Source of the DNA: Phytohabitans maris
Lineage (GTDB): Bacteria > Actinomycetota > Actinomycetes > Mycobacteriales > Micromonosporaceae
DNA length: 64,000 nucleotides
Direction of reading: 5' to 3'
Assembly: GCF_031085175.1 (NCBI RefSeq)
Contig: NZ_JAVHUY010000018.1
Location: forward strand, 62,001-126,000
Shown: piece by piece, positions 27,004-30,573 of the stretch
How positions within the stretch are numbered: the first letter of the stretch is position 1
How the letters are laid out: each line of letters opens with the position of its first letter
The notes under the pieces: generated by a model
What the model was told of the DNA's origin: nothing
Seen by the model: only the letters and a program-made list of their open reading frames with translations
Database searches by the model: none
Program-made: the position numbers and the translations under genes

Positions 27004-27051
27004 CTCTGTCGGGGTGGCCGGATTTGAACCGACGACCTCTTCGTCCCGAAC
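27004..27051. repeat. Left att-like repeat: partial tRNA-Pro copy
   Basis: 48 bp identical to 30526-30573, from CTCTGTCGGGG to CGTCCCGAAC. It covers the acceptor 3' strand, T arm, variable region and anticodon arm up to the loop, then diverges, so it is not a functional tRNA. Confidence 0.9.
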
Positions 27052-27561
27052 AAGGTCAACTTCTAGGAGGTGCCGGCGGACATGGGCGTTGAGCTGGCTA
27101 CATAGCTGGTCTTCATCGGTCCGCTTGCACCCTGAGTGGGGTTGTGCTGCAAGATCGTCTCCCAATTCTCTCCCAACTCGCGGCCTGGCGTGGCTGGCAC
27201 TTCTTGATCTCAGGTGTGAGCCTTACCAGGGCATCCGGTTTAGGAACGATGTAGCCGGGTCTGCCCTGTGGCAGCGACGCATGGCGCGCGCCACCCATGA
27301 TGTGGTGTTCAATGGAAATCCTCGTTGTCATGCTGGCAGCCTCGGCATCCCCACGGACGTATCAACACCTCGGGTATGGCCGTCGGCCCACGCTGTGGCC
27401 CGCGACGACCTGCGGACCAAGAGGCGTACGACGAGTCAGATCCTCGCAGCCGGTGCCCAGGAACACGAGCAGGCACAGTCTCCGCAGTCCCGGCAGACTG
27501 TCAGATCTTGGTCAAAACGGGACAATCGTTCGAGGTGTCGCAACCAAACGCACTGTACCAC

Positions 27562-27593
27562 GGTTACAGTTCGGGTTACACTTCTGGTTAGAG
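27562..27593 (+). promoter_or_regulatory. Three GGTTA direct repeats with 12-bp period
   Basis: GGTTACAG, GGTTACAC and GGTTAGAG start at 27562, 27574 and 27586, ending 25 bp before the first island gene. The regular spacing, slightly more than one helical turn, suggests a binding site for a DNA-binding protein, plausibly the HTH protein encoded by the second gene. This is inference. Confidence 0.45.
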
Positions 27594-27618
27594 GCCAGGC
27601 TCGTCCCCGGGAGTATAT

Positions 27619-28452
27619 ATGACAGAATGGGAAAACTTCCCAAACCCACCAGTGCGCTTAGTTTCCTTCGAACTACGGTTCCCTGTCCGTCGGAGAATCG
27701 CAACACGTCCAGTGTGGGACGCCTTCGAGGAGGGGTTGACGTCCGACCTGCCGAACGTGGAGTCGTTCGTAAGGGAAGGCGATGACGCGCAGCTGCCCGT
27801 ACACGAGAACGACTTGGTGCTACGTAGGTCCAACGTGGATCGCGATTGGGCAGTTACCCTACGCTATAACGGCGTAACGGTCGAAACTACAGCGTACGTA
27901 TCGTATGGCGGCTTGAGGAAGTGCATCGATTCGGTGCTGTTGGCCTTGGAGTCCGTGCCTTGGGCATCCCCGACACGACTTGGCCTTCGGTACATCAATG
28001 AGATCAGGGTACCCGGCGCTAGTCGGATCTTGGACTGGAGACCATATGTCAATCCATGCCTTCTTTCCCCTTTGAATGATCATCCGGTAGGCTACTCTGC
28101 GTCGTACCTGCAAGCTGGCCTCGGGTTCCACTCACTGTCTGGGCCCGAACACACGTACGCACACTACGGACCTCTGCCTGACTCACCCCTAGAGCCCGAT
28201 GACGTGCTTCAACTGAAGGAAATCGATGGCCCTTGTTTCATACTGGACATCGACAGCTTTGTTAGTGGTACAGCGAAGTCTCCCGTAGCGGCCACGCGGA
28301 AGGAGGTATTAGATGTGGTCGATCGCCTACACGACGCCGTTGAGGCGGTTTTCAACTGGAGCATCACTGAAAGACTTCGCGAAGAAGTACTTAGGGTTCC
28401 TCCTTCCGAGACGGAAGAAGGCGCGGAGAGGGCAGGGGATAGAGGTGCCTGA
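27619..28452 (+). CDS. TIGR04255-like protein, first gene of island operon
   Basis: 277 aa. The opening NPPVRLVSFELRFPVRRRI, the central PTRLGLRYINEIRVPG and the C-terminal AVFNWSITERLREEV helix match my recollection of the TIGR04255 family, which is scattered in bacterial accessory regions and has no established function. GGGAG lies 5 nt before the ATG. Leucine is encoded by TTA at codon 14 and again in KEVLDVV, rare in this GC-rich genome and a mark of foreign origin or bldA-type control. The last 8 bp overlap the next gene. No signal peptide or membrane segment, so cytoplasmic. Confidence 0.75.
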   Translation: MTEWENFPNPPVRLVSFELRFPVRRRIATRPVWDAFEEGLTSDLPNVESFVREGDDAQLPVHENDLVLRRSNVDRDWAVTLRYNGVTVETTAYVSYGGLRKCIDSVLLALESVPWASPTRLGLRYINEIRVPGASRILDWRPYVNPCLLSPLNDHPVGYSASYLQAGLGFHSLSGPEHTYAHYGPLPDSPLEPDDVLQLKEIDGPCFILDIDSFVSGTAKSPVAATRKEVLDVVDRLHDAVEAVFNWSITERLREEVLRVPPSETEEGAERAGDRGA

Positions 28453-29098
28453 CATCTCGCATTTCGAGGACTCCATGACGCGAACCAACGTCAGCAACGT
28501 ACTTCGCAGCAATGAACCGGCTGACCACCCGACCGCCATTAGCCAGGCCACGAAGCGTGCTGCCGCCGATCGCGATGAGGCAGGCATGGTAACGCTCGAC
28601 GCCGCTCAAAAGCATGAAGCCTTGCTGCGACAGTTGTGGGACGTGGAAACCGACAAGAGGCTTAAGGGCGGCCTTCAGGCTCTCTTGGTGGAGCTCACAG
28701 AAGGATACGGCCTAGGCTGGAGTGACATCGCCAGGCTGATTAAGGTCAGCGTGCCAGCGATTCGGAAATGGCGCAACGGGGGTGACATCTCAACACAGCG
28801 CCTCTACGCACTCGGCCAGCTCGCAGCCTACATGAAGCTCCTTGAGGATCAGGGTGGAGTGACTGATCCAGCTGCTTGGCTCGCGACGCCGATCGAATCT
28901 GGGATCGATCGATCGATAACAAAGGCGTCGATCTACACGGCAGGACTTGCAGTACCGTTGCTATCCTACGCAGATAACCACATCGGGCTGGATGATCTGT
29001 TGCATAAGATCGGTACATCGGCGACGCAATCTGCTAGCAATACGACGCTTGTCCGCGGTGAGGATGGCTCCATTTCCATCGTGCCAGTGGGGAGTTAG
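28445..29098 (+). CDS. HTH / antitoxin-like protein, second gene of island operon
   Basis: 217 aa from GTG at 28445 (AGGGGA 5 nt upstream, overlapping the previous gene by 8 bp); ATG at 28475 with GAGGA is an alternative. GYGLGWSDIARLIKVSVPAIRKWRNGG looks like a helix-turn-helix. It is followed by RLYALGQLAAYMKLLED and DPAAWLATPI, an arrangement reminiscent of Xre/MbcA/ParS-type antitoxins with a toxin-binding tail, though similarity is weak by eye. It may repress the operon and neutralise or modulate a partner. It ends 1 nt before the third gene. Confidence 0.65.
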   Translation: MPDISHFEDSMTRTNVSNVLRSNEPADHPTAISQATKRAAADRDEAGMVTLDAAQKHEALLRQLWDVETDKRLKGGLQALLVELTEGYGLGWSDIARLIKVSVPAIRKWRNGGDISTQRLYALGQLAAYMKLLEDQGGVTDPAAWLATPIESGIDRSITKASIYTAGLAVPLLSYADNHIGLDDLLHKIGTSATQSASNTTLVRGEDGSISIVPVGS

Positions 29099-29099
29099 T

Positions 29100-29883: not shown

Positions 29884-30353
29884 CTAACGCCCAGTCGCCT
29901 GGCTTCATTGGTTATGGCAAATCGGCATCCGGGAGTTTTCACGCCAAGTGGACATTGACAACCCGGAGGCCGACGGCTGGCGGGGCCTGGCCAGTTTGTC
30001 ACGAAGGTCGTGGTGGGGCCGGCGGCGCGAGCAACCTCGGGCAGGCCCCTGGCCTGCCGGCGATAGCCGGCCCAGGGGTCGCAGAGGCTCCAAGGTCAAG
30101 GGCGGCCGCTTGCGGCCGTCGCTTGCGACGCGCAGCGCCCTTGGCCTTGGAGGGGCGGCCCCGCACACTTCGCGCTGCCGGCCCCGCCACGACCGGCAGC
30201 GAGTCGCGCCACGGCCGCAACCACGCGGCTTCGCCGCGTCCAGCTCGGCGCGGCGCCCGGCCGGCTGCCGGCCCATCAACATCAACACCCGGGAACCGTC
30301 GAAGTCTTGGCGGCCCGGGGTTTCGCATCTTCGCGCCAGCCGACGGGCGTTAG
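29884..30353 (+). ncRNA. Candidate large structured RNA or folded recombination site
   Basis: Nested complementary segments: 29884-29892/30345-30353 (CTAACGCCC), 29974-29982/30334-30342 (CGGCTGGCG), and 30007-30031/30168-30193, about 25 bp whose main mismatches are U.G or G.U on the plus strand. Inside the last, 30088-30104/30136-30152 pair over 17 bp with one U.G, capped by two hairpins with CTTG loops. A second domain has 30193-30200/30264-30271, 30203-30210/30247-30254 (one U.G) and 30223-30229/30233-30239. No coding frame looks real. Because the deviations are wobble pairs only when read on the plus strand, an RNA cotranscribed with the three genes is favoured over random GC-rich palindromes. 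A single-stranded DNA structure is the alternative. Confidence 0.6.
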
Positions 30354-30359
30354 GCGTGT

Positions 30360-30430
30360 CCCGCCGCGTGCGACAGCTAAGCGGCGGGCGCGCGCCCAGG
30401 CGGCGGCGCGAGCGGCCCGTTTCGGGCCGC
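30360..30430 (+). other. Two further strong hairpins in island right flank
   Basis: CCCGCCGC/GCGGCGGG (30360-30367 with 30381-30388) and GCGGCCCG-TTT-CGGGCCGC (30412-30430). The second may end transcription of the structured region. Confidence 0.55.
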
Positions 30431-30480
30431 CTTGAAGATCGTCTCCCAGATTTCGCCCCGATCACCTGGGAGAGTGACGT

Positions 30481-30514
30481 CAGGACCGATCTCCCGTATG
30501 GCAGATCGGTCCTG
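30481..30514. terminator. 12-bp perfect hairpin at the island right end
   Basis: CAGGACCGATCT/AGATCGGTCCTG with a 10-nt loop, 16 bp before the tRNA-Pro 3' end. Being symmetrical it could terminate either strand, including the tRNA transcript reading toward it. Confidence 0.65.
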
Positions 30515-30525
30515 ACCTGGCGTTT

Positions 30526-30573
30526 CTCTGTCGGGGTGGCCGGATTTGAACCGACGACCTCTTCGTCCCGAAC
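30526..30573. repeat. Right att-like repeat, inside tRNA-Pro
   Basis: 48 bp identical to 27004-27051. It extends 5 bp beyond the tRNA 3' end and reaches the anticodon loop. Confidence 0.9.

Follow-up and report, generated by a model that had tools for sequence, protein, structure and literature searches.

Introduction

The RptR-regulated type I restriction-modification (R-M) islands pair a regulator with a direct-repeat operator, built of 9-bp repeats with a TAGCTA core (PMC12255303). Other close comparisons are MazEF/PemIK, CcdAB and MbcTA with its Xre antitoxins, together with TIGR04255 (sporadTIGR04255), a protein family named without a function. We compare with these a three-gene operon of Phytohabitans maris, here called T-H-C, which lies in a 64,000-nucleotide stretch of contig NZ_JAVHUY010000018.1 (the window). 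The operon is toxin-antitoxin-like by anatomy. We give a probability of roughly 0.6 to the reading of T-H-C as an autoregulated toxin-antitoxin-like module with three components, the cargo of an element integrated at tRNA-Pro, and for TIGR04255 this supplies a role hypothesis.

27619..28452, + strand: gene T, TIGR04255 family protein, 277 amino acids (NCBIfam 1.5e-32, 113.4 bits)
28445..29098, + strand: gene H, helix-turn-helix (HTH) protein, 217 amino acids, GTG start (ATG at 28475 possible)
29100..29876, + strand: gene C, protein of predicted MazF/CcdB fold extended by a helical C-terminal region, 258 amino acids, GTG start

Conservation of the three-gene unit

The first-pass annotation of this DNA had described the three genes as coupled by overlaps or 1-nucleotide (nt) gaps, which holds: T and H overlap by 8 nt, and 1 nt separates H from C. 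Its naming of T as a TIGR04255 protein was likewise borne out, the score lying above the curated cut-off of 30 bits. A five-row alignment of C, used as a profile, found 55 loci in the genome collection; three of these (L022, L027, L044) were seeds, and several groups of loci are close to one another. An earlier contig scan with the single C protein had confirmed none of 27 stretches. Profiles of T, H and C found all three genes in the same order in 48 of the 55 loci, far beyond chance, so that they are not regularly found apart and the cross-genome search supports the proposal that the three proteins form one unit. C was without T and H in six loci (L050, L051, L055, L056, L057 and L061) and with T but without a recognised H in one (L059). 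With starts taken from the gene caller, 41 of 48 called T-H pairs overlap, and H and C lie within 20 nt of each other in 38 of 44. L059 keeps T and C around a middle gene that was not recognised as H, possibly through an exchange of partner.

A search starting from T found it in six of 40 class genomes, three of which carry T-H-C in order (G000, G431 with a split C, and G443). The togetherness of the genes is therefore not a mere artefact of having picked loci by C. Among the other T-first genomes, G437 has T-H with an inverted C, G435 has a different third protein, and G043 showed no H or C beside T. C itself is sporadic: it was found in one of 60 relatives, in the same gene order, in 5 of 393 other genomes of the class sample and in 5 of 395 of the phylum sample, which is not the distribution of a housekeeping enzyme. 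C and T have one match each in the source genome. We conclude that T-H-C is a real, conserved and apparently undescribed three-gene module. That it was undescribed had been suggested from the start, and the family libraries and literature search gave no description: no paper on TIGR04255 or on carph-isopro was found, and the T-H-C gene set was absent among the matches listed, in a library without preprints and with few subscription papers. No PADLOC model matched any of the three window proteins at E-values up to 1.

Operator-like repeats and the DNA-binding protein

27562..27590, + strand: operator-like array, three GGTT units spaced 12 bp apart, with its end 28 nt upstream of the T start

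A 20-column motif, seeded from four loci (the window, L049, L014 and L037), was trained on the full set of loci; to score a locus, its own cluster was left out. The training site positions came from a model exposed to every locus, a mild leak. The motif was found at p<=0.05 in 43 of 50 loci against dinucleotide shuffles and in 45 of 50 when random stretches from the same locus served as background, and 40 of the 43 sites are located 20-92 nt before the called T start. A Rhodococcus sequence outside the training set, present on two plasmids, scored 15.6 at position -51. The motif was not found at p<=0.05 before T in seven T-H-X plasmid loci (described below) or before MazE in four loci where C follows a MazE-like gene.

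H had first been read as an HTH/antitoxin-like protein. Its HTH is present but scores weakly; in addition, the H profile matches MbcA (6fkg_C) across the HTH and the region after it (E 0.001). Of 43 Pfam families for H, the 25 that were listed do not include the MbcA_ParS toxin-binding domain. A coupled operon with a predicted DNA-binding protein encoded before the effector, preceded by operator-like repeats in most loci and in the held-out Rhodococcus sequence, is the anatomy of a type II toxin-antitoxin system, and we infer that H binds the GGTT repeats. With this operator candidate, H binding, C toxicity and phage protection become testable by ordinary assays.

Fold of protein C and its sister branch

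The structure model of C predicts a MazF/Kid fold with a MazF-type SH3-like barrel; the MazF/CcdB-fold domain would span approximately residues 25-160 and be followed by the extra helical region. A profile match to PemK, weak but running over the full domain, points the same way, and the proteins carry an [HY]PC motif. A fold is thereby proposed for a family which four libraries (Pfam, NCBIfam, PADLOC and PHROGs) failed to recognise. C also has a sister branch, in which a MazE-like gene precedes it in five of six loci. Antitoxin-type genes thus stand beside both branches of C, and the upstream partner of the MazF-fold protein differs between them, being either MazE-like or H together with T.

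Related modules with another third protein

Plasmids of Rhizobium, Sinorhizobium, Sphingomonas, Chroococcidiopsis, Gloeocapsopsis, Kocuria and Paenarthrobacter also carry T; behind it come a middle gene and the gene of a third protein (X), which has a QTCD or HDC motif. This T-H-X set comprises plasmid regions that were read; a Thermus plasmid with T is known from its gene table alone. Eight X proteins pooled, seven from plasmids and one from G435 (L133), matched the C profile (probability 93.3, E 2.8e-7, 115 columns), and the seven pooled middle proteins matched H (probability 97.9, 95 columns), while crossed controls reached at most 2.7. The L133 protein alone aligned with C over 27 columns only. 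The Sphingomonas T-H-X module (L155) is flanked by genes for an MT-A70 methyltransferase and a Fic protein.

In most loci checked, T is tied to a T-H-C or T-H-X module. It is a speculative extension, which we consider improbable as a whole, that TIGR04255 proteins define a class of three-component effector modules in at least Actinobacteria, Chloroflexota, Alphaproteobacteria and Cyanobacteria. In such modules an HTH antitoxin would act together with T to hold a MazF-fold effector whose [SHTQ]xC motif is conserved. T would be an enzyme resembling guanidino kinases, or a ligand sensor, and would give the trigger; C may use cysteine chemistry in place of classical ribonuclease (RNase) activity.

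Proposed mechanism and its weighing

In the toxin-antitoxin-like reading, C would be the effector, with its MazF/CcdB-fold domain and extra helical region, and H a DNA-binding repressor and probable antitoxin, keeping C inactive and binding the direct repeats of 12 bp upstream of T. The third component would be T, either a co-antitoxin or a sensor, so that neutralisation might come from H, from T or from both. A trigger such as phage infection or loss of the element would cause this control to fail, and C would then stop growth.

Several observations weigh against this reading. None of the 54 members of the C family has a convincing Pfam or NCBIfam match (Pfam PemK_toxin matched none of them), and the window protein has no match in PADLOC or PHROGs. 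Foldseek alone gave nothing below E 0.001 for C, with unrelated enzymes in its top rows; the VIA fold match is a re-alignment of Foldseek's list, and a sequence search of solved structures gave no significant match. The profile of the MazE-branch C proteins alone does not match PemK (probability 0.5%), nor does the T-H-X third protein (2.5%), and Pfam MazE was matched by one of five MazE-like proteins only, below cut-off. The position aligned to the PemK arginine holds Arg in 26 of 54 members, and at the equivalent threonine place no Thr is conserved, the residue being Val or variable. These two catalytic residues are reportedly those known from work on B. subtilis MazF, and the RNase activity of C is therefore doubtful. 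The operator motif was not found at p<=0.05 in seven of the 50 loci. In G437, C lies on the strand opposite to T-H, with no operator at p<=0.05 before the inverted C and no clear one before T, where the score was weak (3.5, p 0.04). Finally, PADLOC tallies of defence genes near and far from the operon showed no clear difference. These compared the nearest genes of 46 loci (81 upstream and 81 downstream) with 90 of 129 far genes, dropping L025, L045 and the seven loci without H; a single gene, L021:2-589, occurs in both sets.

The model of T (predicted local distance difference test, pLDDT, 88.3) has a saddle fold like that of guanidino kinases, a fold match only. One could imagine a toxin-free cassette with a regulatory or signalling task, comparable to RptR or CapK/CapS, in which H represses, T senses a ligand or modifies one, and C, as a non-toxic binding protein of MazF fold, controls nearby defence genes. 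We regard this as unlikely. Sequence gives T no support as a guanidino kinase: hhalign against 12 PF00217 proteins scored 18.2, compared with a maximum of 19.2 in 30 column shuffles, a sequence search of solved structures had no significant match, and Foldseek alone found nothing below E 0.001. Clustering of the neighbours revealed no partner common to most loci apart from T, H, C and antisense frames, and in the sister branch the partner of C is MazE-like.

The tRNA-Pro island

27001..27051, + strand: left attachment-like direct repeat (51-nt repeat, 98%), which copies the tRNA-Pro 3' end
30523..30573, + strand: right attachment-like direct repeat (51-nt repeat, 98%), overlapping the 3' part of tRNA-Pro
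30530..30604, - strand: tRNA-Pro (CGG), apparent integration site

The operon had been placed in an island between tRNA-derived repeats, and these repeats, the right copy lying on the tRNA gene, bear this out. Within the left repeat, 27008-27051 matches the tRNA-Pro of congeners exactly. In two of five congeners (G003 and G005) the left flank continues directly into the tRNA, with 41 of 58 and 36 of 51 identical left-flank columns, respectively, and this direct junction indicates an apparent empty site. In the other three (G001, G002 and G004) the alignment covers a 44-nt repeat and the right flank only. The C gene was not found in any of G001-G005. No integrase gene was recognised in the island, and two open frames tried at its left end had no Pfam match. 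The lower guanine-cytosine (GC) content of the genes was also confirmed: in 500-nt windows it is 0.54-0.60 over the three genes against about 0.68-0.77 outside, and 0.67-0.74 at the structured end of the island. TTA codons, also listed for the operon, occur in T (two) and C (one) but not in H. Taken with the repeats, the locus fits a single-operon cargo at a tRNA site.

The structured region behind C

29877..30525, + strand: strongly folding GC-rich island DNA, outside the conserved system by folding and cross-locus comparison

The first-pass annotation had further joined the three proteins to a large structured region directly behind the operon. The region does fold strongly (z -9.7, 20 shuffles); its membership of the system did not stand. 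Over the 400 nt behind C the window has z -7.9, the next values are -5.1 (L029) and -3.1 (L028), and the median of the 49 sequences, window included, is -0.3; no downstream region of another locus matched that of the window below E 0.1, which argues against a conserved structured RNA. Partial copies occur elsewhere, one of 30257-30438 at 83% in an integrative element of G005 without T-H-C there, and one at 75% in G008. Rfam returned the tRNA and one sub-threshold match. That three proteins and a downstream RNA act together is thus highly improbable, and we rejected the RNA as a component; the structured DNA is more likely element or intergenic DNA.

By eye, the G005 element (L148, C1:1686500-1705500) resembles an integrative element of actinobacteria: two copies of the tRNA-Pro end enclose FtsK-like, replication and integrase genes. 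Ordinary RNAs elsewhere in the window are a bacterial small signal recognition particle RNA (4960-5054) and tRNA-Ser (4777-4864).

Genomic neighbours and mobile elements

A further possibility, which we hold tentatively and somewhat below even odds, is that T-H-C is an addiction module that keeps plasmids and integrated elements and has no role against phages. It concerns the role of the module and overlaps the toxin-antitoxin-like reading, so the two probabilities are not mutually exclusive. On two related Rhodococcus plasmids T comes after mobF, recombinases lie near several loci (by eye), and in the window T-H-C sits on the tRNA-Pro island; searches for C matched no phage and gave no confirmed match in viral contigs. 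Against it, distant relatives of the Rhizobium T occur in three phage records (CAKLQH020000048, CAKLQF020000006 and MT837485), and type I R-M, TIR and other defence genes adjoin some loci, with no clear excess over far neighbours; type I R-M and single defence matches occur in every tally set, near and far.

In L033, L035, L043 and L058 the end of C overlaps the called start of HsdM, followed by HsdS and HsdR (Pfam-checked in L058). The four are close in C and so count as one lineage. A serine-recombinase-like gene lies upstream in this group, by eye. In L044 a DUF1883-TIR gene (8663-9445) overlaps the C stop by 1 nt and is possibly a fourth operon member in that lineage. Similar-looking phosphatase-like gene pairs lie behind C on the opposite strand in Glycomyces and Isoptericola (L022, 8711-10394, and L024, 2819-4437; by eye). 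In Rhodococcus aetherivorans the operon is interrupted by insertion sequences.

Comparison with known systems

With MazEF/PemIK, C shares the MazF/Kid fold by model and profile match, and its sister branch the MazE-like partner. The window operon differs in having H and T in place of MazE, and C differs in its helical C-terminal region, its [HY]PC motif and its lack of conservation of the MazF Arg and Thr. No CcdA was recognised, and the three genes of the window set it apart from CcdAB. The match of H to MbcA recalls MbcTA and Xre antitoxins, but the partner of H is not recognisable as a RES-domain toxin, and the window operon begins with an extra gene, T. T is a member of TIGR04255, to whose bare name the T-H-C and T-H-X modules add a context. 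Finally, the RptR islands (PMC12255303) resemble T-H-C in joining a regulator to a direct-repeat operator, with type I R-M adjoining one T-H-C lineage, whereas the window has 12-bp GGTT repeats and a third protein of predicted MazF fold.
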